Source: Strigamia acuminata
Taxonomy: Eukaryota; Arthropoda; Chilopoda; Geophilomorpha; Linotaeniidae
Reading direction: 5' to 3'
Assembly: GCA_949358305.1 (NCBI GenBank)
Contig: OX442319.1
Location: forward strand, 9,362,001 to 9,426,000
DNA length: 64,000 bases
This document shows positions 12,236-53,890 of this stretch, one piece after another; the stretch's first letter is position 1; each line of letters begins with the position of its first letter. Under the pieces are notes generated by a model, which made no database searches, had not been told where the DNA came from, and saw only the letters and a list, made by a program, of their open reading frames with translations. The position numbers and the translations under genes are program-made.

Positions 12236-14170
12236 TTACGTCAGTTTCTTGTTGCGAACATGTCGGGGACTGCGTACGGAATTCGGAGGCTGTCCAGGCG
12301 GTGACACAGGAGCAACAGGCGGCGTAGAAGGCAGCAGCGGTGTCGACGGTTTTGCAGGTGTGGTTGCAGTCCGAGTTGCGGTTACCGCTGGAGGAACTGG
12401 TTGAGCAAGTGTCGGGGAAGCAATTGCACTCTGAGGGCTCACAAACGGACCAATGTGCCAATCATCCCCCTTAATTGGAAGTGGCGTTCCAATTGATAAG
12501 TCGTTTTGCAATTGGTCGGTGTGTCGTGACCAAATGACGGCGGAAGTCTTGCGCAACGAACGAAATGAAACCAAGAATTGGTCCATAGAATCTGCCAAAG
12601 AGAGTTGAAATTTGGATAATTTCTCCATTTCGTCATGGAAAAAGTTGGGGTGCTGCAACAATAACGTGTGGAACGGGTCGAGCGCGTCAGTGCTTGCCAA
12701 GCAGTGCGTGGAAGCCGGCGCCGTCGCTGCAGCAGCAACAATCAAGTTTGGAGTAGACTCGTTCGGCGAGGAAGCTTCCACATCCAGTCTGGGGGCGGTG
12801 AACTCAGCGGTCGTGCTTTTTGGCGGTTGAGTGCGCTTTCGAGCGGCGCGTCTGCGTGCAGACTTTGAAGTGGTCATGGCGGCGGCTGAATTCACGACAG
12901 CACCCATCGAAATACCAGCAAGGGACAACAAATTGAAGGCGTCCAACCAATTGCGACCCATGACTGGAACTGACCCAGTCGCAGCAACACAGAGCGGTAG
13001 GACGTATTTGCGGCGATCGTGCTGTACCGGCACGTGGCAAACCCCGTCCATCGGCAGGACGTGTCCGTCGTAAGTTGACATCTGCGAATCAAGCGGCTGC
13101 AACTGAAATCGAGAAAAATTTTGGTTATACATCTCGCGACTGATGGTTGTCGCTTCAGCGCCTGTGTCGATCTGCATGAGCAGCAATGTGTCCGCTACTC
13201 GCATTTCCCGAACCAACGGTTTGGTCGGTTTGATGCTGATCGAATTCATCGCTTTTCCGGCCTGTCGAGGTGTCGTACGAATCGAGTAGAAGGTGAGCTT
13301 CCGAGGCGCTGGAATTACAGCGTGGTGGGGAGCAGTTGCAGCGGTTGACATGCAGGCCGATTGTGTGTGCCCGACGAGGCCACAGCCCTGGCACTTGGTG
13401 CGACGATGTTCGCAATCGTCTCTGCGGTGTCCAGTCTGTCCGCACGATCTGCATTTTCCATTGACATGACGTGGCTGGTGACCGGTGCCGTTGCACGATT
13501 TGCACTTGGTGGTATCGTGCTGTTGCAATGGCTGGTCTTGTTGTTGATCGGTGGTGCCCCTCGAGGAGCGTTTGCCACCTTCGTGCGAGTTCGCATTGGA
13601 TCGTGAGGAGTTTCCGCCGTTCTGAAGTTGGTGCACTGACTGCTGGGTGTCGAGAAAACTGGAAACGTCCGCTCCGGCGATCTCGGCGGAGGTGGCTGCC
13701 TCGAGAGCCAATGCAAAAGTAAGATTTTTTTGCGTGTAGAGCGTCTCTTGGACGTGACGCATGTTAAGACCAATGACGAACTGGTTCCGCATCTCGTTGT
13801 CTTGCGAATCACCAAAGTCGCAATATTTCGTCAGCGAGTGCAAAGCGGACGCAAAATCGCTCACCGACTCGCCCTTATTGCGTTTACGAGCACGAAAGCG
13901 CACGATTTCACCCTGCTTGACCGGCTTTGGCTTTTGATTTTTCACCATTAAGTCGGTTAGTTGCTTGAATGTCAATTTCGTCGGCTTTTTAGGTCGGGCC
14001 AGATCCACAAATTTGGCAAAAGTTGCCATTCCCACGCAGGCCAAAAGCGTATTTACTTTTTCTGCGTCCGCGACGATTTTGTTGCATGAGAAGACGCATT
14101 CCATCTGGAGGATGTAGGTTTCCCAATCGTCGAGCGGGTTGTATTTTTCCGGAGCCGCAACCAAAGGCAT
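12236..14170 (-). CDS. gag-pro: Gag-protease polyprotein of compact LTR element
   Basis: Intact 644 codons. Residues ~1-170 are a Gag capsid-like region (WETYILQMECVF..., FRARKRNKGESVSDFASAL), typical of Ty3/Gypsy Gag. Residues ~220-275 hold zinc knuckles; two fit CX2CX4HX4C exactly (CRSCGQTGHRRDDC, CQGCGLVGHTQSAC). A retropepsin follows at ~335-430 with LLLMQIDTGAEATTIS; DTGA is the catalytic triad and VMGRNWLDAF fits the usual C-terminal segment. The last ~200 residues (Ala/Thr/Pro-rich, ending RSPRHVRNKKLT) look like the basic tail usually found after integrase. The ORF may therefore be a full element from which RT to integrase was deleted in frame. It is GC-richer than its surroundings. 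Transcription is expected from the 5' LTR at 14350-14534. Confidence 0.9.
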   Translation of the reverse strand: MPLVAAPEKYNPLDDWETYILQMECVFSCNKIVADAEKVNTLLACVGMATFAKFVDLARPKKPTKLTFKQLTDLMVKNQKPKPVKQGEIVRFRARKRNKGESVSDFASALHSLTKYCDFGDSQDNEMRNQFVIGLNMRHVQETLYTQKNLTFALALEAATSAEIAGADVSSFLDTQQSVHQLQNGGNSSRSNANSHEGGKRSSRGTTDQQQDQPLQQHDTTKCKSCNGTGHQPRHVNGKCRSCGQTGHRRDDCEHRRTKCQGCGLVGHTQSACMSTAATAPHHAVIPAPRKLTFYSIRTTPRQAGKAMNSISIKPTKPLVREMRVADTLLLMQIDTGAEATTISREMYNQNFSRFQLQPLDSQMSTYDGHVLPMDGVCHVPVQHDRRKYVLPLCVAATGSVPVMGRNWLDAFNLLSLAGISMGAVVNSAAAMTTSKSARRRAARKRTQPPKSTTAEFTAPRLDVEASSPNESTPNLIVAAAATAPASTHCLASTDALDPFHTLLLQHPNFFHDEMEKLSKFQLSLADSMDQFLVSFRSLRKTSAVIWSRHTDQLQNDLSIGTPLPIKGDDWHIGPFVSPQSAIASPTLAQPVPPAVTATRTATTPAKPSTPLLPSTPPVAPVSPPGQPPNSVRSPRHVRNKKLT

Positions 14171-23569: not shown

Positions 23570-24440
23570 TAATGCTTGAATTTGTTATCAGGTGTTTTCT
23601 TTTCAAGTGTTTTGACAATGTTTTACAAGAAGCTCTACTAAATTACTTCAAACATAAAACAAAGTGCTCAAGCTGTACTCCCAGCTGGCATTTCTGGCAT
23701 TTCTGACCTTGTTAATTCGTTTGTTGCATTATATCAAGCTCAAACTGTACTCCCACAGCCTAAATAAATTCTATTTAACATTTGTGGTCAATTGCTTCGA
23801 CAAGTGATACACACATTCAGATTCAACAATGCATGCAAAATAATGTGAGTGCCTTGATGTTTGCTGGCCGTTGTCTAGTCCACAGGAGGCCCAACAAAAT
23901 AGTAATTTTAAATAAAATAAAATTAAAGTGTCCAATTAATGGAGTTCGTGTGAATTCTACTCATTTCCAAAGTGTGAACTTGCGATACCAATTCATGCAA
24001 ATGCCACACTTATTTCTGAAGTGTGGTCTTACAATAGAATTTCAAGTAAATGCCACACTTATTTCTGAAGTGTGGTCTTAAAATACAAAAATAATACACA
24101 TTCAACACAATGGAACCAAAAATGTAATGAAATGTACCGCGTAATTTACAGTTCGGCCATTTAAAATTGCAATTTTTTCTGCAAATGGTGAAAAAATGAC
24201 GCTAATGTTCAACGAGAATTCGATAACATAAAAAGAGCGTTTCTAATTTCAACTGTACTTGAATTTTCCGAAGGATTTGCCGAATTGTAGCCCTTAAAAC
24301 CAAACCTAACGAAGTGACATGCATACGTGGCATCCCAAATCAATGTGCCGACTCATGGCGACTATTTTCCGGAAGTACCGAAATGAGAAAAGCCTCGACA
24401 CCACAGAATAAATAGTAACAAGCGCGGTCTAGTGTGTGAC
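23570..24440 (-). repeat. ~870-bp repeat flanking the innexin, minus copy
   Basis: Same repeat as 30575-31290, 43185-44167 continuing at 53180-53310, and 61978-62360 (plus orientation there). Marker words are agcgcggtctagtg, the aagtgtggcatttgcatgaa doublet and gatacacacattcag. It borders both innexin copies on their 3' side and so may have mediated the inverted duplication. Confidence 0.75.
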
Positions 24441-24618
24441 TAAAAAATAAAACATCAAACCTTAATAAATAAAATTTTAGATGGAAAAAAACTAAAAATT
24501 AATGAAGTAAATAAAAATGAATTATTTGGTTCTTGACTCTTGAGGAATGAATTACATCAATTTCGAAAATTTTATTTTATTTTTTTAAGAGAACAATTTG
24601 ACAATTTATTTTGAAAAT
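24441..24618 (-). other. innexin A 3' flank with poly(A) signal
   Basis: AATAAA on the minus strand at 24610-24605, about 9 nt past the stop, and the same signal in the second copy (42966-42971). Confidence 0.55.
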
Positions 24619-25671
24619 TTATACTCCAGTCGGCGATTTTCCTACATCCAATTCGTCTAACAACATATCGAAAGCAAACGCATCGACATTTTTAGCCAAC
24701 AAATTCAAAATCAACCAATCTCCAATTTTCCCACCAAGGAGCAAATCATTCCTACTTTCGCTGCTTACGCAACCAAACTGCCAATGCAAAGCCTTAACCC
24801 TAAGCTTAGGCCAACTCAAAAGGAAAATCCTGTAAACCAAAACGAGACCCGTAGGAACGGCCAAAACGACCAACCAAAACCAAAGAAACACGTAGATCTT
24901 TTCGTTTATGACATTCATCGGCAGAACACAAATCGCATCGAGGGTCTGTACGTCTCCACTCGGTCCAAAATTGCGAAAAGCGCATTTGGTCAATCGCGGA
25001 AAAATGGCCGCTATCGTATCGTTTCGCTGCTCCTGGTCCAACAACCCGTATTTGATGACGCGTGTCCCGTAAGTCGTAAAAACTCCCCCCAAAAAACGGT
25101 CGATTATATAAATCTGCGCAATTACATTCACGAAATTCATCAGCTCGCACATAAAATAACCCAACGCCCACTTGTTGAGGTTATTCCAATTCCTCAACAC
25201 GTATTGTCCCAACGACGAAACCCGCTTTTCGCACAAAGGTTCTCCCAAACCTTTCACGAGACGAGACACGCGTCCATTATCAATCTTCTTCCAAATGTAC
25301 CGCGGAAAATAGAACATGGCCGATTGTAAAGTGAGGACTAGCCAAACCCATTGGTAATAAGTGTGGTGGAAGATCGTGTCGCCTTCTTTAGCGGTGTTGA
25401 TTCCCGGATACGGATCGTTGTTTGCCGAACCCACTAGAGAGAAAGTGGATCTCGTCCAACAGTAGTTCTCCAAAAGTTCAGTGCTTAGGGAGGGCGGAGG
25501 TGGACCGCAAGAGATTGGTTTGCCGAAGTGTTCCTTGCTCGTGACTAAAATGGCGGCGGCAGCCAAGATTAGTGCAGTTACGCGGTAGTGGAGGTGGAAT
25601 ACGAAATTGTCGATTCGGGCGGAAGCGTGCGGCTTGATAATGGCGGAGGAAAAAGCTTTGAGAACTGACAT
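24619..25671 (-). CDS. innexin (gap-junction/hemichannel protein), copy A
   Basis: 350 codons in one exon. Innexins form plasma-membrane gap junctions and hemichannels in protostomes. The order is canonical: TM1 at ~31-45 followed by LVTSKEHFGKPISC; extracellular loop 1 with C55 and C71 in YCWTRSTF; the innexin signature YYQWV at 105-109 leading into TM2 (~110-126); TM3 ~170-190; loop 2 with C230 and C248 in FPRLTKCAFRNFGPSGD and DAICVLPMNVINEKIYVFLW; TM4 ~259-283. Two Cys per loop is the family rule. At 350 aa it is slightly short, mainly in the cytoplasmic tail. ATG 25671 is preceded by caaaccacc, identical in both copies. A TATTTAAA box lies ~50 bp upstream. It sits ~410 bp downstream of the receptor-like gene on the same strand. 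Intron absence is unusual and could mean origin by retroposition. Confidence 0.97.
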   Translation of the reverse strand: MSVLKAFSSAIIKPHASARIDNFVFHLHYRVTALILAAAAILVTSKEHFGKPISCGPPPPSLSTELLENYCWTRSTFSLVGSANNDPYPGINTAKEGDTIFHHTYYQWVWLVLTLQSAMFYFPRYIWKKIDNGRVSRLVKGLGEPLCEKRVSSLGQYVLRNWNNLNKWALGYFMCELMNFVNVIAQIYIIDRFLGGVFTTYGTRVIKYGLLDQEQRNDTIAAIFPRLTKCAFRNFGPSGDVQTLDAICVLPMNVINEKIYVFLWFWLVVLAVPTGLVLVYRIFLLSWPKLRVKALHWQFGCVSSESRNDLLLGGKIGDWLILNLLAKNVDAFAFDMLLDELDVGKSPTGV

Positions 25672-25721
25672 GGTGGTTTGTTGACAGTCAATGAATTAAG
25701 TGTGTAGATAGGAAAGGAGTG

Positions 25722-25729
25722 TTTAAATA
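25722..25729 (-). promoter_or_regulatory. TATA-like box of innexin A
   Basis: TATTTAAA on the minus strand ~50 bp before the ATG, inside a ~120-bp block (ccccactttcccc, cacacgtctcctcaacgttc) that is almost unchanged in copy B. The conservation relative to the flanks suggests promoter function. Confidence 0.5.
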
Positions 25730-26082
25730 GGGGAAAGTGGGGAACGTTGAGGAGACGTGTGTGGGTCCTAAAACGCGATGTATGGAAAACGAAACGTATT
25801 AGGAATGTGACAAAAAGTCAAATTGTACAAATTTTGTGATTTTTTTGTTGTTAAAAATGATATTAAATTGAGATTTTGTATTTAAATATTGATTTTGTGT
25901 TTAAAATGATGAATGATCTTTTAGAAAAAGTTTATTTATCGACTGTAACGTTTATAAAACGTACAAAATTTCCAGAGCAATTACAGAGTGATTCATTTTA
26001 TACAAAAATATTTTGCGAAAGATAATTTTATTTTTTTAACAAAACAAAACAAAAAAAAGACCAATATTGACATAAACTTCAT
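25730..26082 (-). other. receptor-innexin intergenic region
   Basis: Carries the rest of the innexin 5' region, then the 3' end of the receptor gene. AATAAA on the minus strand at ~26027-26032 can serve as the receptor poly(A) signal. In the inverted copy most of the receptor-side half is deleted. Confidence 0.5.
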
Positions 26083-41653: not shown

Positions 41654-41845
41654 GTTATTATTATTATTATTTTAAACACAAAATCAATATTTGAATACAA
41701 AATCTCCATTTAATATCATTTTTAACAACAAAAAAATCACAAAATTCGTAAAATTTGACTTTTGTCACATTCCTAATACGTTTCGTTTTCCATACATCGC
41801 GTTTTCGGACCCACACACGTCTCCTCAACGTTCCCCACTTTCCCC

Positions 41846-41853
41846 TATTTAAA
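41846..41853 (+). promoter_or_regulatory. TATA-like box of innexin B
   Basis: TATTTAAA 51 bp before the ATG, within the same conserved upstream block as copy A. Confidence 0.5.
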
Positions 41854-41903
41854 CACTCCTTTCCTATCTACACACTTAATTCATTGACTGCCAACAAACC
41901 ACC

Positions 41904-42956
41904 ATGTCAGTTCTTAAAGCTTTTTCCTCCGCCATTATCAAGCCGCACTCTTCCGCCCGAATCGACAATTTCGTATTCCACCTCCACTACCGCGTAACTG
42001 CACTAATCTTGGCTGCCGCTGCCATTTTAGTCACGAGCAAGGAACACTTCGGCAAACCAATCTCTTGCGGTCCACCTCCGCCCTCCCTAAGCACGGAACT
42101 TTTAGAGAACTACTGTTGGACGAGATCCACCTTTTCCCTAGTGGGTCCGGCAAACAACGATCCGTATCCGGGAATTAACACCGCTAAAGACGGCGACACG
42201 ATCTTCCACCACACTTATTACCAATGGGTTTGGCTAGTCCTCACTTTACAATCGGCCATGTTCTATTTTCCGCGGTACATTTGGAAGAAGATTGATAATG
42301 GACGCGTGTCTCGTCTCGTGAAGGGTTTGGGAGAACCTTTGTGCGAAATGCGGGTTTCGTCGTTGGGACAATACGTGTTGAGAAATTGGAATAACCTCAA
42401 CAAGTGGGCGTTGGGTTATTTTATGTGCGAGCTGATGAATTTCGTGAATGTAATTGCGCAGATTTATATAATCAACAGTTTTTTGGGGGGAGTTTTTACG
42501 ACTTACGGGACACGCGTGATCAGATACGGGTTGTTGGACCAGGAGCAGCGAAACGATACGATGGCGGCCATTTTTCCGCGATTGACCAAATGCGCTTTTC
42601 GCAATTTTGGACCGAGTGGAGACGTACAGACTCTCGATGCGATTTGTGTTCTGCCGATGAATGTCGTAAACGAAAAGATCTACGTGTTTCTTTGGTTTTG
42701 GTTGGTCGTTTTGGCCGTTCCTACGGGACTCGTTTTGGTTTACAGGATTTTCCTTTTGAGTTGGCCTAAGCTTAGGGTTAAGGCTTTGCATTGGCAGTTT
42801 GGTTGCGTAAACAGCGAAAGTAGGAATGAGTTGCTCCTTGGTGGGAAAATTGGAGATTGGTTGATTTTGAATTTGTTGGCTAAAAATGTCGATGCGTTTG
42901 CTTTCGATATGTTGTTAGACAAATTGGATGTAGGGAAATCGCCGACTGGAGTATAA
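41904..42956 (+). CDS. innexin, copy B
   Basis: 350 codons, one exon, inverted paralogue of 24619-25671 with 12 replacements by my count: A16S, S82P, E96D, K149M, D191N, R192S, K207R, I220M, I255V, S303N, D309E, E340K (96.6% identity). All four loop cysteines (55, 71, 230, 248), YCWTRSTF and YYQWV are unchanged. Most replacements lie in the cytoplasmic loop, extracellular loop 2 or the tail. No stop or indel, so both copies appear functional. AATAAA at 42966-42971. The upstream region is shortened by deletion of the receptor 3' end, so the regulatory context differs from copy A beyond ~250 bp. Confidence 0.97.
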   Translation: MSVLKAFSSAIIKPHSSARIDNFVFHLHYRVTALILAAAAILVTSKEHFGKPISCGPPPPSLSTELLENYCWTRSTFSLVGPANNDPYPGINTAKDGDTIFHHTYYQWVWLVLTLQSAMFYFPRYIWKKIDNGRVSRLVKGLGEPLCEMRVSSLGQYVLRNWNNLNKWALGYFMCELMNFVNVIAQIYIINSFLGGVFTTYGTRVIRYGLLDQEQRNDTMAAIFPRLTKCAFRNFGPSGDVQTLDAICVLPMNVVNEKIYVFLWFWLVVLAVPTGLVLVYRIFLLSWPKLRVKALHWQFGCVNSESRNELLLGGKIGDWLILNLLAKNVDAFAFDMLLDKLDVGKSPTGV

Positions 42957-43772
42957 ATTTTTCAAAATAAATCGTCAAGTTGTTTTCTTAAAAAAATAAA
43001 ATAAAATTTTCGAAATTAATATAATTCATTCCTCAAGAGTCAAGAACCAAATAATTCATTTTTATTTACTTCATTAAATTTTATTTTTTGAGTGTTATTT
43101 TATTTTTTTTCTATCTAAAATTCTATTTATAATCATTTTAATGCAAATTAAGGTTTAATGTTTCATTTTTTAGTCACACACTAGACCGCGCTTGTTACTA
43201 TTTATTCCGTGGTGTCGAGGCTTTTCTCATTTCGGTACTTCCGGAAAATAGTCGCCATGAGTCGGCACATTGATTTGGGATGCCACGTATGCATGTCACT
43301 TCGTTAGGTTTGGTTTTAAGGGCTACAATTCGGCAAATCCTTCGGAAAATTCAAGTACAGTTGAAATTAGAAACGCTCTTTTTATGTTATCGAATTCTCG
43401 TTGAACATTAGCGTCATTTTTTCACCATTTGCAGAAAAAATTGCAATTTTAAATGGCCGAACTGTAAACTACTCGCTACATTTCATTACATTTTTGGTTC
43501 CATTGTGTTGAATGTTTATTATTTTTGTATTGTAAGACCACCTTCAGAAATAAGTGTGGCATTTACTTGAAATTCTATTGTAAGACCACACTTCAGAGAT
43601 AAGTGTGGCATTTGCATGAATTTGTATCGTAAGTTCACACTTAGCAAATGAGTGGAATTCACAGGAACCTTCATTAATTGGACACACTTCTAACCAATAC
43701 AATTTTTATTTTATTTTAAATTAATATTTTGTTGGGCCTCCTGTGGACTAGACGACGGCCTGCAAACATCTA
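42957..43772 (+). repeat. 3' flank of innexin B and innexin-flank repeat
   Basis: Mirrors 24618-23870 and continues into the dispersed repeat (cactagaccgcgcttgttac from ~43186). The repeat is then broken by a mariner-type MITE and by the Gypsy element, and resumes at 53180. Confidence 0.75.
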
Positions 43773-44101
43773 CAGTCAGTGCACGGTATCTTGATGCTAA
43801 ATTCGTACTGCGCATCCCATTCTGCGCAGACAATTTTCTAATTCCAGTTGTTATTTAGCAGTATTAAGCCTAATATTAGGCCTATCAATGCTAAAATAAA
43901 GTAAATAAACACAAATATTTTGGTTATACTGTGAGAATTACTTTTAATGATTAGTTTTTTGTTGTTTATTTACTTTATTTTAGCATTATTAGGCCTAATA
44001 ATAGGCTTAATACTGCTAAATAACAACTGGAATTAGAAAATCGTCTGCGCAGAATGGGATGCGCAGTACGAATTTAGCATCAAGATACCGTGTGCTGACT
44101 G
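43773..44101. mobile_element. Tc1/mariner-type fold-back MITE (329 bp)
   Basis: Palindrome with ends CAGTCAGTGCACGGTATCTT / AAGATACCGTGTGCTGACTG, flanked by TA (43771-43772, 44102-44103). Arms are ~140 bp each with a short centre near 43937. CAGT ends plus TA duplication are typical of Tc1/mariner. The empty site is at 31147 (aacatctgggcaatcac). No transposase. Confidence 0.88.
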
Positions 44102-44167
44102 TAGGCAACCACATTATTTTGCCCGTATTTTGACTTGAATGCATTGTTGAATCTGAATGTGTAATAT

Positions 44168-44660
44168 TGTTACGTGGCTAAATGGGGATTGATTTAGTCC
44201 TACGTGACATGAATTCACTCAAGAATGACACAGGGTTTTATATGTAAAATGCCTGTTGGCTTTATTGTTCAAAGTCGGACATTTACTAATGTAAATGTTC
44301 GGTCATCAGCTCTTATTACATTTGTTCATTTATTAAACCTAAAACACATAAATGGTTCATTCAAATCAAATAAGGATGATGCTGTTGTTTATTCAATTCA
44401 ATTCAGGAAACCTAGTCCTGCCTGACCGTCAACCGGCTGGCAGTAGTAGGTGAAGGTAATAGTTTGAGAATCAAAAGAGATCTGAGCTCTCTGGCTTAAT
44501 CAACTCACTAAGTAAACTCCTATTCCCCCTATTAACTAAGTTGAACGGTCTGTGCATCTAATTAGGTGCACAGCGCCGTCTAGTGAGAATTCATTGCATT
44601 AAATGCCTAAACAGAGCGAGCAGAGCCAGCCGATACACGGTACGGCTCTACCGCGTAACA
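44168..44660 (-). repeat. 3' LTR of Gypsy element
   Basis: 493 bp, TGTTACGTGG...CGCGTAACA on the plus strand (TG...CA ends on either strand). No base differs from 52687-53179 by eye. Confidence 0.97.
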
Positions 44661-44674
44661 GCCCCCCCCTTTAA
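44661..44674 (-). other. polypurine tract of Gypsy element
   Basis: On the minus strand AATTAAAGGGGGGGGC abuts the 3' LTR. Confidence 0.8.
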
Positions 44675-45076
44675 TTTTTTCGGTCTCTCGAAAAACAATG
44701 AATTGTTCTAACTAACGCATCTCCTTTCACATTAAAAAAAAAATTCAAATCATAAACTCAATTTTACAATTTTGAGAATCTCTTTTCATCATCCTTATTT
44801 TTACAAAAATATAATATGATACACTTTTCAATGTTTATAAATGTCATAGTCACTTTTTATTACATTTTTACATTGGAAACAATTTTCAAAGTTTAAAATT
44901 AAATAAAATTAACACTTTTCATCAATAATAACACTTTTTGGTTTTTTGTTTTATATTACTTTTTTTTTTCAAGTTTTCAATTTTCTATAAAATAAAAAAA
45001 AACACACACACAAAAAAAAATGTTCAAAGTTCGTGTTGATTTTACACTTATTCACTTAAAGAAGTTAAAGTTCACT
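44675..45076 (-). other. 3' untranslated part of Gypsy element
   Basis: AT-rich, non-coding, between the ORF3 stop and the PPT; contains A/T runs and a CA stretch (45002-45012). Confidence 0.6.
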
Positions 45077-46450
45077 TCACTCTCCTCCTTCCGCTTGATC
45101 CTTCTTATCTTCTTCCTTGATCAACTCGAATGGGAGAATTTCACGATTTGCAATCTCGTACACAAATCGTAAGCGTAACTCACACGGCTCCCCAAACTGC
45201 ATTAAGTCACGGTCTTCAACGTATCTTCTAGTGAAGTAGAGTATGGTTGGGCCACAGCTGTCATTATCCAATTGGTGCATACGTGGCGGGTCCCAACGTA
45301 TGAATTTGTTTGGAAACTTTACTCCTGCATCCATCAACGAGTATCTTAAAGATTCCCACTTTGGATATGTGCGCTCTATTGGTCCGCTTGGGTCATAAAG
45401 CACGTATTGGGTTGGCTTTTTCCGCCAATCCACTATGAAAAGCTGCCAATGCTCTTCAATAGGAACTGGAAACACCCAAATCTTCTTTTGAGCACTTGGA
45501 AGTCTCTTCATTAGCCAATAGATCGCTTCTTTTCGTTTAGCTGGGTCTACCATTTTGAAGACCCACTCAGATTGAATTGGTGCCAATATGGGATATCGTT
45601 CTTCTAACAGTTGGAGGTAGTGATCAACGACGCTGTCATACGTCCAGCTCTGTCGTCCCGGCGTTAGATCGCCTAATGCTGCCATCTGATAGTTCATGAC
45701 TTTAATCGGCGGACAACCCACGGCGTCGAATGCTAAGTCATATTTTGGCGCATTACTATAGTCTAATGCAAGTCCGAGAGCCTGGACCTGTCGTGCAGCG
45801 TCCAACTCCACACGGTATACCCGTATAGGAGTAGGAAATACTACACTAGGGTCCTGGAAGGACTCTCTTCTCGCTAGGGCGATGGCTTTTAAAATGTTTT
45901 TCCTTATCTTCGCCTCCTGGATCAGCAAAGCATTCGCCCCTGTTCTCCACAACTGATAGTCGGGCAATCCCATCACTCCTTTTAATTTCCTGGCTCTAAT
46001 GGCGTTGACCATATTCCGGTGCTCCATTCGCAAATCATTTAATCGGCGTTTGTTTCGATCAACGGTGTGACGCATTTCTTCTTCCCGGATTCTTTTTGAT
46101 TGCTCGTCAAACACTTTCTTCTTTTGTGCTTTCTTATCTCGTTTCAATTGTCGATTCTTACGACGACGACGCAATAAGCCTTCTTCACCCTTTGTTAATG
46201 GTCCTGCATATTTCTTTTTGTCTTCCTCCGCCTTTTGTTTTCCTTCTGTAAACGGGCGTGGGCAGTTAACCAATTCGTCCAAAGTTTTACTTGTGCTCGG
46301 CTTATTTGCTAAATAAATTTCCAAGTCATCGCCTTTCTTAAGTTGACGTTCCAAAAGATCGCCCACTTGCATCGAGCAAACCGAATTCGCATCGCTGTCA
46401 CTGTCACTACGCACATCCATCCGATCAAATTTGCTTGCCATTTCGTCCAT
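45077..46450 (-). CDS. ORF3: Ulp1/adenain-like (C48-type) cysteine protease of Gypsy element
   Basis: 457 codons. The C-terminal ~165 residues have the Ulp1/SENP/adenain fold signature. There is an entry segment at ~269-285 (WTYDSVVDHYLQLLEER), catalytic H334 in EEHWQLFIVDW, D353 in VLYDPSG, oxyanion Q393 and nucleophile C399 in HQLDNDSCGP. Every catalytic position is filled. The N-terminal half is charged, with a strongly basic stretch at 93-112 (RRRRKNRQLKRDKKAQKKK) that could direct nuclear entry or bind nucleic acid. There is no signal peptide or membrane segment, so it is not an Env. Known relatives cleave SUMO/ubiquitin-like conjugates or, in adenoviruses and Polinton-type elements, virion proteins; the target here is unknown. 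ATG 46450 lies 7 nt after a good splice acceptor. The ORF starts 416 nt past the pol stop, so a separate spliced mRNA is likely. Confidence 0.88.
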   Translation of the reverse strand: MDEMASKFDRMDVRSDSDSDANSVCSMQVGDLLERQLKKGDDLEIYLANKPSTSKTLDELVNCPRPFTEGKQKAEEDKKKYAGPLTKGEEGLLRRRRKNRQLKRDKKAQKKKVFDEQSKRIREEEMRHTVDRNKRRLNDLRMEHRNMVNAIRARKLKGVMGLPDYQLWRTGANALLIQEAKIRKNILKAIALARRESFQDPSVVFPTPIRVYRVELDAARQVQALGLALDYSNAPKYDLAFDAVGCPPIKVMNYQMAALGDLTPGRQSWTYDSVVDHYLQLLEERYPILAPIQSEWVFKMVDPAKRKEAIYWLMKRLPSAQKKIWVFPVPIEEHWQLFIVDWRKKPTQYVLYDPSGPIERTYPKWESLRYSLMDAGVKFPNKFIRWDPPRMHQLDNDSCGPTILYFTRRYVEDRDLMQFGEPCELRLRFVYEIANREILPFELIKEEDKKDQAEGGE

Positions 46451-46456
46451 TCGGAT

Positions 46457-46475
46457 TCTAATATATTATTTGAAA
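46457..46475 (-). other. splice acceptor for ORF3 mRNA (candidate)
   Basis: Minus strand reads ...tcaaataatatattag before AATCCGA and the ORF3 ATG, with a T-rich tract (tttattttattttcttttc) just upstream. AG is at 46459-46458. Confidence 0.55.
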
Positions 46476-46865
46476 AGAAAATAAAATAAATTAATTCATT
46501 AATTCAAAATATTCACAAAATTATTCCAATTTTCATTCACTATTTCATTTAACATTTCATGTTGCACTAAATTACACTAAATTTAACAATTCTTCAACTA
46601 ATTAGTCACTTGATAATATATGCACACACTAAAATTTCATTTCGAAGATTTAACACAATTATTTAAGTTTAAATTTCCATTTCGCGATGTTATTTTCTCA
46701 CAAAATTCGCGATAAATTCGTTTCGTTTTTAAGCTATTTGTTCGCCAAATTCGTTCAAAATCCACTCTTTTCACTTACGGAATCACACACAAATCAACTG
46801 CTGCTGTTATTAATGCTTTAGGTTTCTTTGAGTCACACAGTAAACCCGGTTCGTCTCAGAAAACC
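46476..46865 (-). other. pol-ORF3 intergenic region
   Basis: Non-coding, AT-rich, T-rich toward the acceptor on the minus strand. No ORF continues pol. Confidence 0.6.
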
Positions 46866-49800
46866 TTAACACAATCCACTGTAGTCACGACGAGCCTGTT
46901 TGCGAAGGCGACGTGACCGGAAACTCTCGATTTCAGGTGGCGACGCGTCATCGACTGCGTCAGCGACACCTGTCGGCGGTTTTCGCAATTGATTTTCTTT
47001 GTTTTTCCGTTCGTCTTCGTTTTGCCATCTTTCCATAATTTCTTTCGGTCCATAGAGCGCTTTTAATCGCTCTTTTTCGCTTGGAATTGGGAAATTTGAC
47101 ACTTTTATTGTATTTTCTTCAGGTTCAAAGAGTGTTTTTAACGAAATTTGATCGTCATCGCTAATGAATCGTTCTTTAGCGATCGGAATTGGCGAAATTG
47201 ACGTGTTTTCTTCAATTTCTTGCTGTTTTTCACTTTGTGTTGCAATTTCATCAGCAAATGTGACTTTTTTAGCCGTCAATTCTTCTAATATCTCCGCTGG
47301 AATTTCTTCTCTGGGTTTATACGGTTTTAATCGTTCAATATTAACAATATCTGTTTTCTTTCCATTTGAGCTTCTAATTTCATAGTCATTTGGCGCGGTT
47401 CTTCTTACTATTTCGTATGGGCCTGAGAACTGTGGTAGGAGTTTTTCACTTAACCCAACTTTTCTATTGGGTGTTTTGAGATATACTAATTCTCCTGGGT
47501 CAAATTCCACATGGACTCGGCCTTGATCGAATCTTTTTCTGCTTTTTTCTCCTTGCCACTCCAACCTTTCATTTGCTATCTTCCTAGCTTCTCTGATGAA
47601 TTTTGAGGTTCGCAAGGTAAATTCTTTTTGAGGTAAGTTGAGGTTTACGTCCACGTTCAAATCAACTTCATATCCTTTCAAAAGATAATAAGGTGTATAT
47701 CCTGTCGTTTCATGCACACCGGTATTATACGAGAAAAGCAAAAATGGCAAAAAATCATCCCAGTCCCTCTGGTCCTTATCAACGTAAATTTGCAACATTT
47801 TTGCAAACGTCGCATTAAAACGCTCAGTAAGTCCATTGGTCCTTGGATGGTACCCTGAAGTGGTTTTGTGTAGGGCTTTAAACATATTTGATACTTCTTC
47901 CACCATTTTGTTTCTGTATTCTGTGCCTCTATCGCTCAGGATTTCTCTCGGACTGCCTTCCTTCAACATTAACTCATAAAGCAAGGTTCTAGCTGCTTCC
48001 AACGCTGTTGATGCTGGAGCTGCTCTAGCAATCACTGTCCGCGACAAATAATCTGTCATTACGAAAACATACTTGTTGCCCTTATCGGAGGTTGGAAAAC
48101 TTCCCAGTGTGTCGATTCCAATCCTCTCGAAAGGCTTAGATATCGTAGACCACGGCTGCATTAAACCTTTTGGCGCTGTCGTCATTGATTTCGAGCTCGC
48201 GCAATGTGGACAAGAAAGTACGTAATTTCTAACGTCTTTATATATCCGGGGCCAGAAGAATCTTGTTCTCATTCTCTTCCATGTTTTGTTTAGGCCCAAG
48301 TGAGCACCCGTCAGTCCATCATGCATTTCTTCAAGAACGGCCGTTTTCAAATGCTGTGGAACGTATAACAGATTTACTTCCGTGTCTAGGGAATTCAGAG
48401 AATTTTTCTTCCTAAACAACACGTTATCGAGAAGGACGAACTGCTTTAGAGGACGTCTTCTCTTCTTCGGAAGTTGCTCTACTTGATTCATTGCGGTGAT
48501 CAATTCCAGTAGCTTCTTGTCCTTACGCTGCTCAGCAGGAAGGTCGAGCTGTTCGAGTAAAAGTGAGGGAACTATTTCGTTTTCTTCCTCGCTTAAATCT
48601 TCTGGAATTCTGCTCAAGGCGTCGGCATCTTTGTGCGCTTTTCCGCTCTTGTAGATCACATCGAAATCAAAATCTACTAGCTGTAGGCTCCATCTAGCTA
48701 GTCTGCCATTGGGGTTTTTGACTGATTTTAGCCATTGGAGTGCCGAATGGTCTGTAATTATCTGGAACTTCTTACCATACAGATAAGGTCGGTACTTTTC
48801 AATTCCAAACAGAATGGCCAGACATTCCCTTTCTGTGGCTGTGTAATTCTGTTCTGCTTGGCTGAGAAGTCTACTGGCATAAGCTATCACATGTTCTTGT
48901 TTGTTTATCTTCTGTTTCAACACTGCTCCAAGACCATATGCGCTCGCGTCAGTCGATACCATGAAGGGTTCTTCAAAATTAGGGTGCGCAAGCACTGGCA
49001 CGGTGATAAGGGCGGTCCTTAATGTTTTAAAGGCCTTGTCATGAGGTGGGCCCCAATCGAATTTCTCGTCCTTCTTCGTCAAATTGACTAAGGGCTTGGA
49101 TATGTCCGCAAAACCTGGAATAAACTTCCTGTAATACGAACAGAGCCCTATGAATCCTCGAAGAAGTTTGAGGTTAGTAGGAACTGGAAACTTTGCGACC
49201 GATTCCAAGTTCCTAGGGTCTGGTGATATACCCTCAGAGTCCACGACATGTCCCAAATACTTAATGGTGTTTGTCCCAAATGTGCACTTGCTCAACTTCA
49301 CCTTTAAGTTAGATTGTCTAAGCTTATTGAAAACGTTGTCTAGATCTTTCAAATGCTGATCGAATGTTTTAGAGAAAATGATAAGGTCGTCAATGTACGC
49401 TATACAGACTTTGCCTAGGAGGTTGCCTAAAACTTTATTCATTAACTTTTGAAAAGCCGCTGGACTATTGCATAATCCCATTCCTAGGACGTTAAACTCA
49501 AAATGTCCGCTTGAAGTGGTAAATGCTGTTTTTTCGCGATCTTGTTCATCTATTTCGACTTGATAATATCCTTGAATAAGATCCATCATGGAGAAGAACT
49601 GTGCACCTGCCAGCTGATCTAAAGTGTCATCTATTCTTGGCAATGGGTACACCATTTTCTTTGTTATCGCATTCAAACGTCTCCAGTCGACACAAAATCT
49701 CCACTTACCATCTCTTTTCTTTATTAGCAATACAGGCGCGCTCCAGGGACTTTCTGATTCCCTTATCACTCCCATATCAAGCAATTTCTTTGTTTCCTCA

Positions 49801-50810
49801 GCTTCGACTTCTTTTTCCTTCATAGAACGACGATACGGTTGCAAATGTATTGGTTCATGGTCTCCAGTATCGATTTTATGCTTATACACTTGAACTCTTC
49901 CCAAATCCTTGTCAGAAACAGCAAATCTGTCTTGATTCTTTTGAAGAAGTTGTCGCATTTGCTCTTGTTGGTCTTTATTCATTTTGTCTTTTGCTATTGA
50001 GGCGTCAAAGTCAAAACAGTGTACCTGTTTTTCATCAAACACCCCAACATCAACCACATAATAAGCTTTTGCGATTGCTGACTTCTCCTTCAGAAAGACT
50101 GTCTTCTTGGTTGGGTTAGCCACTCGAATGATGCCTTTTCCGTTCTTGAAATCTGTTAAAGTTTTACAACCTATCACAGCAAATCTATCAGTAACATTAT
50201 GCAATGGTTGCACAAACATGTCCAATGTTATTGCTTTATTCAAATAGATGGGAACAATGCATTCGTGCATTGGTGGTATAGTGATGTTTTTCATTACCCT
50301 CGCAACATAATTCTGATCAACAAAAGTTTTATTCATTGGAAATGACACTTCCTTTCCACTAGTTCGGCCCACAAAGATTTTTTGTTTGTCGTAGTCTAAC
50401 ACACACTTCGCGAACAGCATGAATGGGTCACTTAGCAGTAATTCATAATGAAATCCTTTAACAATCAGGACCTCGATCCTGTATGTTAATTCACCAATTG
50501 TTATGTTCATCTTGGTTTTTCCTATTGGAGTCACAAGTTCTCCGCTTACCCCTTGCAATCGAATGTTTGGGCTGGGCGGGTACTTCAACTGTAGAGCTTC
50601 AGCAAGCTCTTCGCTGATAACATTGCGTTTTCCTCCAGTGTCCATAACTGCCTTGACTTCCATGTTGTTCACTATTACTGGAATTTCCAATAGAGATTCT
50701 GAAATGTTCATATTGACTACGATTATCTTTTCTTTTCTACTTTTTCTTTTCTTCTTTGGATGACAACATCTTCCTTGTTGATGGTGACATCTTCTTTGTG
50801 GCCGACCCAC
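46866..50810 (-). CDS. pol: Pol polyprotein (PR-RT-RNase H-INT) of Gypsy element
   Basis: 1314 codons in the -1 frame relative to gag, counted from the GTG at 50810. Retropepsin with D57-T-G (VMDTGGKRNVI). Reverse transcriptase with D410 and YIDD 472-475 (AYIDDLIIFS) plus LGMGLCNSPAAFQKLM. RNase H from ~617 (STDASAYG, D621; TATERECLAI; TDHSALQWL). Integrase with H829, H836, C866 and C869 (HHCC zinc finger) and catalytic D899, D959, E995 with the canonical D-35-E spacing. A chromatin/GPY-type segment (QFSGPYEIVRR) follows, then a ~130-residue charged tail. All catalytic residues are present and there is no internal stop. Processing by its own protease and cDNA insertion by INT are inferred from the family. 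Confidence 0.96.
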   Translation of the reverse strand: MGRPQRRCHHQQGRCCHPKKKRKSRKEKIIVVNMNISESLLEIPVIVNNMEVKAVMDTGGKRNVISEELAEALQLKYPPSPNIRLQGVSGELVTPIGKTKMNITIGELTYRIEVLIVKGFHYELLLSDPFMLFAKCVLDYDKQKIFVGRTSGKEVSFPMNKTFVDQNYVARVMKNITIPPMHECIVPIYLNKAITLDMFVQPLHNVTDRFAVIGCKTLTDFKNGKGIIRVANPTKKTVFLKEKSAIAKAYYVVDVGVFDEKQVHCFDFDASIAKDKMNKDQQEQMRQLLQKNQDRFAVSDKDLGRVQVYKHKIDTGDHEPIHLQPYRRSMKEKEVEAEETKKLLDMGVIRESESPWSAPVLLIKKRDGKWRFCVDWRRLNAITKKMVYPLPRIDDTLDQLAGAQFFSMMDLIQGYYQVEIDEQDREKTAFTTSSGHFEFNVLGMGLCNSPAAFQKLMNKVLGNLLGKVCIAYIDDLIIFSKTFDQHLKDLDNVFNKLRQSNLKVKLSKCTFGTNTIKYLGHVVDSEGISPDPRNLESVAKFPVPTNLKLLRGFIGLCSYYRKFIPGFADISKPLVNLTKKDEKFDWGPPHDKAFKTLRTALITVPVLAHPNFEEPFMVSTDASAYGLGAVLKQKINKQEHVIAYASRLLSQAEQNYTATERECLAILFGIEKYRPYLYGKKFQIITDHSALQWLKSVKNPNGRLARWSLQLVDFDFDVIYKSGKAHKDADALSRIPEDLSEEENEIVPSLLLEQLDLPAEQRKDKKLLELITAMNQVEQLPKKRRRPLKQFVLLDNVLFRKKNSLNSLDTEVNLLYVPQHLKTAVLEEMHDGLTGAHLGLNKTWKRMRTRFFWPRIYKDVRNYVLSCPHCASSKSMTTAPKGLMQPWSTISKPFERIGIDTLGSFPTSDKGNKYVFVMTDYLSRTVIARAAPASTALEAARTLLYELMLKEGSPREILSDRGTEYRNKMVEEVSNMFKALHKTTSGYHPRTNGLTERFNATFAKMLQIYVDKDQRDWDDFLPFLLFSYNTGVHETTGYTPYYLLKGYEVDLNVDVNLNLPQKEFTLRTSKFIREARKIANERLEWQGEKSRKRFDQGRVHVEFDPGELVYLKTPNRKVGLSEKLLPQFSGPYEIVRRTAPNDYEIRSSNGKKTDIVNIERLKPYKPREEIPAEILEELTAKKVTFADEIATQSEKQQEIEENTSISPIPIAKERFISDDDQISLKTLFEPEENTIKVSNFPIPSEKERLKALYGPKEIMERWQNEDERKNKENQLRKPPTGVADAVDDASPPEIESFRSRRLRKQARRDYSGLC

Positions 50811-50860
50811 TAGTTTTCCTCTTCTTGTTGACCTTGTTGTGGGTTCTGCTTAGGATTAGG
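50795..50860 (-). other. gag-pol -1 frameshift region
   Basis: The pol frame is open only for about the last 15 codons before the gag TAG (50812-50810); earlier it is closed by several TAA triplets. The shift must therefore occur in this short window. GAGGAAAAC directly before TAG is the most slippery-looking run, but it does not fit the classical X-XXY-YYZ rule exactly. Confidence 0.6.
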
Positions 50861-52141
50861 GTTAGTTTTACCACCCCCTTGTGTCCTTTTCTTCTTAAAC
50901 CACCTTTTGTTGTTTGGGTTCCCTCTATTCTCTTGAGGTTGTTGCTCCTGTGGCGCTGATGTGTTATGTTCACAACCATAACGATGCCAACATCCACATG
51001 AACGCGTTGTTGTCGGACTGCTATTTGACCGTTGTCTACCTCTGTTATATCTACCTCTAAAGTTCTGTCCGCGCTGCGATGCTGGAATATACCACTCGCC
51101 TTGTATGAATAATGGAACCGATTGTTGTGGCTCTACTGACTCACTTACGAGCTTTTGCTGTTTTAATTTAATATTTTCAGCTAATAACTCGGCGTAGCTT
51201 ACTGGGGATCCCCCTATTCCAGACAGTATACCTGTTGTCGTAGGGTTCACCTTTTCATCTACAACTTTTTTGAACATTGTGAGCAGTAGATCCGCTGGTT
51301 CTTCTGTTTTGTGACTTTCATACAATTTAAGTCTCTGTTCCATTTCTTCTAACGTCGATGGAAATACTGTTATCATCATCTTCTGCATTGCAGGCTTCAA
51401 ACCTTGGTAAACATAATTTATTTTCTGAATTTCAGTCATTTCTGGTAGAATAAACGCACATTCGGCCAAGACTTTCTTCATGAAGGCATCTGCTGTACCC
51501 TCTTTATGTTTCATGAAGTGGAGAGTATTATAAACATTTTCTTGGCTTCTTCTAAATTTTTTCTCGATCTGTGGTTTCCAATCCGTCCATTTCCATGTCG
51601 GATTCTTCTTTAGTTGTTCCACAAACCATGCCAATCCATCAGTCTTTAAGGCTAATGCTAGATGTTTTACTCTCTCATCATCTGTTCCTATTGTAGCTTC
51701 ATATGCCACAAGCCATTGGTCGATGTTGCCCTTTTCTGTATCATAAGTGACAACAGGTCGCTTCTGCACTACCAAACTCTTCAATAAGTCGGTCAATACG
51801 TCCGTTGGAGTCTGTGGTGATGTCATTTTTGGAAAATTTGGTTCAATTGGTGTTGGAACTGGTTTAGTCTTTACTGGTGTAAATGTCTTTATTATTTCTT
51901 CTAAACCTTTTTGTGGAATTAATTTTATTAACGGAGTAGCGAAATCCAACTTCTGTAGGATTGATTGAGGTTGAGATCGGACTTCTTTATCTTCCTTCTG
52001 AGGTTCAGTGTCAGATTCGGATCCAGTGTTCCTTTTCTTTCTAGTAGCGATAAATTTCAAATCCGGTTCGGGCAATTCCCAATTTTGTAAATCTTGAAGA
52101 TTATCCGTATTAAACTGCGACAATTTTATTGGCTTAGCCAC
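50810..52141 (-). CDS. gag: Gag of Gypsy element
   Basis: 443 codons. Residues ~120-285 have the Ty3/Gypsy Gag capsid pattern (WLVAYEATIGTDDERVKHLA, FVEQLKKNPTWKWTDWKPQI, FRRSQENVYNTLHFMKHKEG). The C-terminal ~90 residues are Arg/Asn/Gln-rich (RGQNFRGRYNRGRQRSNSS) with a degenerate Cys-His cluster (CGCWHRYGCEH) in place of a regular CCHC knuckle. It would assemble the particle and bind the RNA. The start at 52141 follows the leader; the upstream donor at 52230/52229 would remove gag from spliced mRNA. Confidence 0.92.
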   Translation of the reverse strand: MAKPIKLSQFNTDNLQDLQNWELPEPDLKFIATRKKRNTGSESDTEPQKEDKEVRSQPQSILQKLDFATPLIKLIPQKGLEEIIKTFTPVKTKPVPTPIEPNFPKMTSPQTPTDVLTDLLKSLVVQKRPVVTYDTEKGNIDQWLVAYEATIGTDDERVKHLALALKTDGLAWFVEQLKKNPTWKWTDWKPQIEKKFRRSQENVYNTLHFMKHKEGTADAFMKKVLAECAFILPEMTEIQKINYVYQGLKPAMQKMMITVFPSTLEEMEQRLKLYESHKTEEPADLLLTMFKKVVDEKVNPTTTGILSGIGGSPVSYAELLAENIKLKQQKLVSESVEPQQSVPLFIQGEWYIPASQRGQNFRGRYNRGRQRSNSSPTTTRSCGCWHRYGCEHNTSAPQEQQPQENRGNPNNKRWFKKKRTQGGGKTNPNPKQNPQQGQQEEEN

Positions 52142-52223
52142 ACTAAAGCCTTTATATTGCGCTTTTTATCACTTTCACTAGCACTGATTCACTTTCTAAA
52201 CACTGAATACACTAACACGAATT

Positions 52224-52233
52224 CATTACCTGA
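52224..52233 (-). other. splice donor in Gypsy leader (candidate)
   Basis: Minus strand ttttCAG|GTAATG with the junction at 52230/52229, 88 nt before the gag ATG. It matches the metazoan donor consensus and would pair naturally with the acceptor before ORF3. Confidence 0.55.
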
Positions 52234-52670
52234 AAACTTAAAGTGTTATTAGCATATAATACATAAATATTACACTCAAAATTACAAAGAAAATAATCCA
52301 TCAATAACATTTCAAAACAATTTTTTCAATTCCTATAAATTCACAAAATTTCCTGTAAATAAATATCAAAATTAGTATTTATACACTATATATTTTATTT
52401 ATTCCAATTATAACAATTGTAAATCAATTTATTAATCCCTAATAAACAATTAAACCCTTTATTCATTTCCAAAATGCAAATTTTTTCACACAATGACATT
52501 AAATATTCAAGCTGTGACTTCACTTATCTTTACCAACTCTGAGTCATTCAAGATAATTGCTATAAAATCAGCAATTTTCAAGTTTTTATTTCTAGATTTT
52601 TATTAAATTATTTTGGCAATTTTAATCCAATTTTAATGGGATTTTAAATCTAAACGGGCTACAATCGAGA

Positions 52671-52684
52671 CCGCATCTCCACCA
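52671..52684 (-). other. primer-binding site of Gypsy element
   Basis: Two bases after the 5' LTR the minus strand reads TGGTGGAGATGCGG, complementary to a tRNA 3' end ...CATCTCCACCA. The tRNA species was not identified. Confidence 0.75.
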
Positions 52685-52686
52685 GT

Positions 52687-53179
52687 TGTTACGTGGCTAA
52701 ATGGGGATTGATTTAGTCCTACGTGACATGAATTCACTCAAGAATGACACAGGGTTTTATATGTAAAATGCCTGTTGGCTTTATTGTTCAAAGTCGGACA
52801 TTTACTAATGTAAATGTTCGGTCATCAGCTCTTATTACATTTGTTCATTTATTAAACCTAAAACACATAAATGGTTCATTCAAATCAAATAAGGATGATG
52901 CTGTTGTTTATTCAATTCAATTCAGGAAACCTAGTCCTGCCTGACCGTCAACCGGCTGGCAGTAGTAGGTGAAGGTAATAGTTTGAGAATCAAAAGAGAT
53001 CTGAGCTCTCTGGCTTAATCAACTCACTAAGTAAACTCCTATTCCCCCTATTAACTAAGTTGAACGGTCTGTGCATCTAATTAGGTGCACAGCGCCGTCT
53101 AGTGAGAATTCATTGCATTAAATGCCTAAACAGAGCGAGCAGAGCCAGCCGATACACGGTACGGCTCTACCGCGTAACA
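52687..53179 (-). repeat. 5' LTR of Gypsy element
   Basis: 493 bp, same sequence as the 3' LTR; expected promoter for genomic and spliced transcripts. Confidence 0.97.
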
Positions 53180-53890
53180 ATATCACTTGTCGAAGCAATT
53201 TACCACAAATGTTAAATAGGATTTATTTCGGCTCTGGGAGTACAGTTTGAGCACTTTGTTTTATGTTTGAAGTAATTCAGCATAGCTTCTTGTAAAATGA
53301 AAACACTTGAAATGAAAACACTTGAAAACTTGAAAACACTTGAAAACACTTGAAATCACGTTTGGACATTCTGCAGTTTCTAAGACATCGCACACAAACA
53401 ATTATGTCCATTTTGAATCGCGTTGAATCATGCAGAAATTCCCGTCTTCTAAGAACTGCATCAAGAAGGCTTCGCTCGCCTCCTGCGCTGGTGTACGGTA
53501 ACTTTCAAAGGGGTTTGATACGGTTCGATTTGGCTAAGGCAATTGTCGTTTTCTTTCACACTGATCTTATCCGCAAAGAATCATCCAAAAACGGAAGATG
53601 ATGTTGAAAACTAAATACTTGAAATGAAAACACTTGAAGTGAAAACAGTTGAAAAAATGAAAAAAAAAAACCTAAAAACACTTGAAATCATGTTTGGACA
53701 TTCTGCAGTTTCTGCAGTAGTTTATTCTAAGACGTTTTCCATAAAAATTCTGTTTCGTTTGTACTGTAATGGTCACATACAGTCCACCTAAAAATGCAAC
53801 AAATTAACGAGAGTAAAAAAAACCAGAGCTCAAGAATAAATTTTCTATATCCTTTTTATAAAAAAAGTAAAAAGTAAAGTCCAAGTTAAA
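53180..53890 (+). repeat. innexin-flank repeat (continuation) and dispersed modules
   Basis: Resumes the interrupted repeat at atatcacttgtcgaagcaat, then carries modules shared with 31.9-32.2 and 63.0-63.3 kb (cttgaaatgaaaacacttga). No gene recognised. Confidence 0.7.

Follow-up and report, generated by a model that had tools for sequence, protein, structure and literature searches.

Errantiviruses, the env-bearing Gypsy elements of insects, carry a third open reading frame (ORF) behind gag and pol, and the same layout is found in the element described here, a complete minus-strand Ty3/Gypsy retrotransposon in a 64,000-nucleotide window of the Strigamia acuminata genome (contig OX442319.1, positions 9,362,001 to 9,426,000), where it occupies window positions 44168-53179. 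ORF3 of this element differs from the errantiviral arrangement in having no membrane-like hydrophobic stretch, and on its predicted structure it is a SENP/Ulp1-type cysteine protease sitting in the env slot of an animal Ty3/Gypsy lineage. Capture of ORFs downstream of pol has been reviewed (PMC6431247), and captured enzyme genes in this position are reported from long terminal repeat (LTR) retrotransposons of bdelloid rotifers, in which they are likewise family-specific, were acquired more than once and are common to several retroelement classes; one derivative, TelKA2n, lacks most of pol but has an env-like ORF3 (Rodriguez et al. 2017, PMC5408684). The bdelloid enzymes described in that paper are GDSL esterase/lipases and DEDDy exonucleases rather than C48 proteases, and words beginning with Ulp or SUMO do not occur in its main text. 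The present element fits this class of LTR elements, having an enzyme gene after pol that is under selection and lineage-specific in its presence.

Domains of the C48/Ulp1 type are reported from DNA transposons. Ginger1 transposons of animals combine, as here, a Gypsy-like integrase with a C48/Ulp1 (or OTU) domain, but they move by cut-and-paste, have terminal inverted repeats and carry Ulp1 inside the transposase (PMC2836005); assignment of the present element to Ginger1 was rejected because LTRs and a reverse transcriptase (RT) are present. Mutator-like transposons with Ulp1 are also C48-bearing mobile elements, but are DNA transposons with C48 fused to the transposase, as described in the same paper (PMC2836005). 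A survey of C48 loci returned C48-bearing transposase-like proteins at L051 (C1:47.59 Mb) and L052 (C1:22.25 Mb), with equal open frames at six and two places, respectively; both are possible Mutator-type examples on our own reading, made without a search, in which L051 resembles Mutator elements and has a PHD-like end and L052 is a transposase. These reports already document enzymatic ORF3s for LTR elements and Ulp1 domains for DNA transposons, and their combination is apparently new. No report of a Gypsy element with an Ulp1/C48 gene was found in a literature covered mostly by titles and abstracts, and subscription papers or Repbase may hold one. Searches of a 5.8-billion-protein set returned no ORF3 relatives outside the host genome at E ≤ 1 (7997 candidates scored) or at E ≤ 10 (3110 candidates scored), and none were found in viral or prokaryote contigs; named animal genomes lay outside these searches. 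A catalytic-domain profile gave mixed scores over eight C48 loci, with L052, L066, L067 and L068 at 17-25 bits and no score for the other four, and therefore no protease source can be named.

The sequence-only reading of the window had assigned ORF3 a C48-type catalytic arrangement and a basic N-terminal half. The corresponding features are as follows.

45077..46450, minus strand: ORF3, 457 codons, predicted SENP/Ulp1-type protease, starting 415 nt past the pol stop
45134..45817, minus strand: C48 catalytic domain, ORF3 residues 212-439
45254..45256, minus strand: codon of catalytic Cys399, in the motif QLDxDSCGP, invariant in 14/14 aligned copies
45272..45274, minus strand: codon of Gln393, which we take to be the oxyanion-hole position, invariant in 14/14
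45392..45394, minus strand: codon of catalytic Asp353, invariant in 14/14
45446..45451, minus strand: His334 (catalytic) and Trp335 (tunnel), opposite His533 and Trp534 in the SENP1 alignment
45644..45646, minus strand: tunnel Trp269, aligned with SENP1 Trp465
46115..46177, minus strand: basic patch, ORF3 residues 92-112, putatively resembling a nuclear localization signal
46458..46490, minus strand: pyrimidine-rich stretch ending in AG, a candidate 3' splice site, 7 nt ahead of the ORF3 ATG

His334, Asp353, Gln393 and Cys399 lie where that reading had placed them, and residues 1-240 contain 53 K/R versus 37 D/E. The complete His-Asp-Gln-Cys active site is invariant in all 14 aligned ORF3 copies together with both tryptophans, whose SENP1 counterparts, Trp465 and Trp534, have a role in the tunnel (PMC5030089). 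In a sequence search of the PDB, full-length ORF3 matches SENP1 at E 2.2e-4 and the C-terminal 216 residues match it at E 7e-5; Peptidase_C48 (Pfam) is matched by 13 of the 14 family members, the exception being the window's own ORF3, for which Pfam lists no match. The C48 call also stands after the structure prediction that had been proposed as a check, in that the ORF3 model adopts a C48 fold best matched by SENP1, SENP2 and Ulp1 at 13-21% identity. Folding of the window ORF3 by itself gave no usable model (pLDDT, a measure of model confidence, 44.7). The predicted protein thus shares fold, catalytic residues and both tunnel tryptophans with these enzymes, and differs from them in being encoded by an LTR retrotransposon, in its low identity and in an N-terminal half of ~205 residues. 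In the same fold search SENP1, SENP2 and Ulp1 score 3-5 Z units over NEDP1, and this modeled preference makes it unlikely that ORF3 acts on NEDD8 or ubiquitin, for example by stabilising element proteins against the proteasome.

Two further roles were considered for a protein in this position. Hydropathy profiles of the 14 copies gave top 19-residue values of 0.69-1.43 and N-terminal 12-residue maxima of -0.62 to 1.09, and no membrane-like hydrophobic stretch was found in any of them by hydropathy only, with no signal-peptide program applied; ORF3 is therefore probably not an envelope or membrane fusion protein, and the predicted fold is of the C48 type instead. A protease that matures the particle by cutting element polyproteins, in the manner of adenain or pS273R of African swine fever virus, had been offered earlier as one of two functions, and a match to an adintovirus adenain was obtained, but it is weak (E 0.096). 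Adenoviral proteases are absent from the 50 fold matches listed, which leaves direct adenain descent unsupported without excluding it. We regard a maturation protease as very unlikely: pol has its own aspartic protease, the predicted fold matches SENP1/2/Ulp1 far better, and open pol frames persist without ORF3, one such deleted form occurring at three places.

ORF3 is widespread in the host genome, which comprises 237.5 Mb in 157 contigs. The census, in which 93 of 509 candidates were scored and whose counts are lower bounds, gave at least 94 matching entries at 33-100% identity, equivalent to at least 92 places as two copies fill two entries each; recurrence of the 457-codon frame on this scale is therefore not due to chance. 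A query from a second subfamily gave at least 103 entries, among which are fragments of a single copy, and added further ORF3 groups with 51-54% identity to that query. Within the group at 91-100% identity 37 of 45 listed entries are full length without a stop, by our count. The C-terminus of pol lies upstream on the same strand in all 30 near copies (L001-L030), and same-strand pol is present upstream within the fetched piece in 15 of 20 diverged loci, being absent in L032, L040, L043, L048 and L050, of which L040 and L048 retain a remnant of the pol C-terminus. The occurrence of ORF3 at so many places in several subfamilies rules out a one-off host gene capture, as which the sequence-only reading would have regarded it had no other family member carried ORF3. 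A cluster of diverged ORF3 fragments, L053 and its neighbours, lies at C1:47.99-48.10 Mb; a domesticated host copy was sought in this 48.0-Mb cluster and rejected, L053, the sole copy read, being a degraded ORF3 that has lost residues beside the catalytic Cys.

The nonsynonymous to synonymous divergence ratio (dN/dS, NG86) of ORF3 is 0.052-0.126 in all eight pairs passing the filter (synonymous divergence, dS, <1.5 and >15 differences), so that the neutrality check suggested earlier returned purifying selection; pol gave 0.01-0.18 in pairs with dS <1. Summed over 27 distinct near copies, whose comparisons with the window ORF3 are not independent, 396 synonymous versus 81 nonsynonymous differences were counted (284 synonymous and 1087 nonsynonymous sites). 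These values bear on the view that ORF3 is only a passenger, a C48 gene that was captured and hitch-hikes without helping the element. Loss of ORF3 in five lineages speaks for this view, but a ratio of 0.05-0.13 already disfavours it, the active site is invariant over deep divergence, and ORF3 is retained by L048, a derivative that lacks pol and has identical LTRs; the passenger view is extremely improbable.

Losses of ORF3 were examined by direct reading of nine pol places chosen for having no listed ORF3. In six (L054, L056, L057, L060, L061, L062) nothing matches ORF3, and three keep only its tail, namely the last 44, 48 and 23 residues in L058, L063 and L064, respectively. Relative to the nearest ORF3-bearing relative, breakpoints differ between families A (L064), B (L060-L062), C (L063), Cx (L058) and E (L054), and therefore at least five ORF3 deletions occurred in lineages with pol still open. 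The family E deletion runs from 124 nt ahead of the ORF3 start to just past its stop, with 92-94% identity to L047 on both sides. Family B breakpoints are the same in L060, L061 and L062. These have 1360-codon pol frames ahead of the deletion and occupy three different places on the chromosomes, and therefore the ORF3-less form spread. A further family, with a 1270-codon pol and without ORF3, sits within the D/E pol clade (clade support 94/83), indicating that ORF3 was lost rather than never had. The four junctions printed (L060, L062, L063 and L064, from three families) show short local similarity only; loss via splicing or conserved flanking direct repeats was rejected, as they have neither a GT-AG pattern nor a shared long repeat. 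The converse derivative is L048 (C13:8192000-8197900), 5.3 kb long and bounded by identical 573-bp LTRs, in which most of gag-pol is gone and ORF3 remains open. Both kinds of derivative, ORF3-less and pol-less, are what a trans-acting product would allow.

ORF3 also has a modular history. The pol and ORF3 trees have their main groups in common and differ in depth. For L044 versus L046, pol dS is 0.28, yet ORF3 synonymous sites are saturated (proportion of synonymous differences, pS, 0.83; dN 0.29), and for L036 versus L039 pol dS is 0.54 and ORF3 pS 0.81. L044 and L046 are 83-92% identical over the last kb of pol. Identity is 33-67% from the spacer through ORF3 and again 89% in a 200-nt bin starting ~160 nt past ORF3, the outermost bin of the profile being an end effect. 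Because the depths of divergence differ, the simplest account is that the ORF3 segment was exchanged by recombination between elements with similar pol.

A spliced subgenomic ORF3 message would need an acceptor, and bdelloid LTR-element ORF3s are said to come from spliced messages (PMC5408684). In 11 of 14 copies a pyrimidine-rich stretch with an AG lies within 100 nt ahead of the ORF3 start, the acceptor-like AG being 5-7 nt before the start in six copies and 46-48 nt in five; of the control pieces, taken from 110-400 nt upstream in the same spacers, 167 of 700 were positive. Residues 88-115 hold 10-15 K/R among 28 in all 14 aligned copies, and the basic patch at ~92-112 could, judging from composition, serve nuclear import.

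Taken as a whole, these data are best explained by a captured, nuclear, trans-acting deSUMOylase that counters SUMO-dependent silencing, an account to which we give an even chance of being right. ORF3 would have been taken up in the env slot by an animal Ty3/Gypsy lineage and would be expressed as a protein of its own, with a spliced subgenomic RNA as the probable message. The protein probably enters the nucleus by means of its conserved basic region. Its most likely action there is to remove SUMO from host proteins that silence the element; removal of another ubiquitin-like protein is less likely. Candidate targets are SUMO-dependent co-repressors of the PIWI-interacting RNA (piRNA) and heterochromatin pathways; piRNA silencing in C. 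elegans is promoted when HDAC1 is SUMOylated (PMC8131101). Acting in trans, a deSUMOylase could counter silencing for all copies at once, ORF3-less copies could therefore depend on those still carrying it, and the gene would be handed around the lineage as a cassette. The fuller picture, in which providers that kept ORF3 and freeloaders that deleted it coexist in one genome and the cassette is swapped between elements, is tentative, and we lean somewhat against it. Of the alternatives proposed by the sequence-only reading for its C48-type protease, deconjugation from host silencing or integration factors and particle maturation, the first is the one carried forward here, and that reading is supported overall.

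Several observations weigh against the deSUMOylase account. The link between SUMO and piRNAs is established in Drosophila and C. elegans rather than in the present host; C48 relatives also cut NEDD8 or ubiquitin, SUMO being a predicted substrate; the nuclear localization signal is read from composition only; and three of the 14 copies did not pass the acceptor test, whose control pieces overlap each other. In addition, many open pol frames have no ORF3 downstream. Among 150 RT places scored out of 3617 candidates, a same-strand ORF3 match follows in at least 60, comprising 36 of the 41 at 99-100% identity and 24 of the other 109. ORF3 is therefore not needed in cis and may be of only conditional benefit.

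The substrates of ORF3 may instead be Gag, integrase or RT of the element itself, or host factors of integration or repair; stripping these of SUMO or ubiquitin would aid nuclear entry of the particle or integration rather than relieve silencing. The same fold and tunnel evidence fits this alternative, trans-complementation of ORF3-less copies fits it equally, and the Ginger paper proposes that transposase Ulp1/OTU domains act in transposition or repair (PMC2836005). Nothing here indicates Gag or integrase as the substrate, however, and across the compared subfamilies the integrase part keeps 81-84% identity to that in the window, whereas ORF3 is only 32-46% identical in L033-L050; a partner outside the element is therefore weakly better suited, and we consider action on the element's own proteins or on integration possible but doubtful. 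Since SUMO is a hub of animal transposon silencing, an element with a conserved SUMO-protease-like gene offers a testable case of direct attack on it. Providers and freeloaders in one genome would also offer a setting in which to study how an anti-silencing gene that is a public good persists when the copies sharing it are selfish.

The remaining features of the element agree with its initial description as intact, with identical 493-bp LTRs, a 4-bp target site duplication, ATAT on both flanks, and gag, pol and the 457-codon ORF3 all open on the minus strand.

44164..44167, unstranded: target site duplication ATAT, left copy
44168..44660, minus strand: 3' LTR, 493 bp, TGTTACG...CGTAACA, identical to 52687-53179
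44661..44680, minus strand: polypurine tract AAAAAATTAAAGGGGGGGGC, adjoining the 3' LTR on its upstream side
46866..50810, minus strand: pol of the GPY/F type, protease-RT-RNase H-integrase, read in frame -1 with respect to gag
50810..52141, minus strand: gag, with a weak Ty3_capsid match (E 0.0022) under Pfam's cut-off
52671..52684, minus strand: primer binding site TGGTGGAGATGCGG, 2 nt past the 5' LTR, called by position and its TGG start, with no tRNA matched
52687..53179, minus strand: 5' LTR, 493 bp
53180..53183, unstranded: target site duplication ATAT, right copy

Pol comprises an aspartic protease, RT, RNase H, an integrase zinc finger, the integrase core and a GPY/F-type C-terminus (Pfam Integrase_p58_C). 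The element has the attributes of Metaviridae, namely LTRs, a short target duplication, a primer binding site (by position only), a polypurine tract, the protease-RT-RNase H-integrase order and a Gypsy-type integrase, and among 120 pol relatives listed those named by organism are arthropods. The sequence itself also points to an arthropod host, with an innexin gene and, at a contig end, repeats of TTAGG, the arthropod telomere motif. A nematode host was considered and rejected: TTAGG gave 18,704 matches and TTAGGC a single one, and SL1 RNA gave none, although this last result proves little since control genomes were equally negative. The gag frame begins at GTG in the mechanical ORF list, and no ATG occurs in it ahead of codon 106; the true start may be spliced or non-ATG.

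Elsewhere in the window, an ORF of 644 codons at 12236-14170 (minus) has zinc-knuckle-like motifs and an aspartic-protease-like stretch, and by eye is perhaps the Gag-protease of another retroelement. About 1 kb at 21528-22563 matches its own reverse complement at 97%, forming a long palindrome. A 2.1-kb inverted duplication with 94% identity (23856-25910 and 41666-43770) carries in each copy an intronless 350-codon innexin-like gene, at 24619-25671 (minus) and 41904-42956 (plus), the second of which was included in the Pfam run. An inverted repeat at 43770-44104, with 142-nt arms that are 96% complementary and 51 nt apart, ends ~60 bp before the insertion site of the element.

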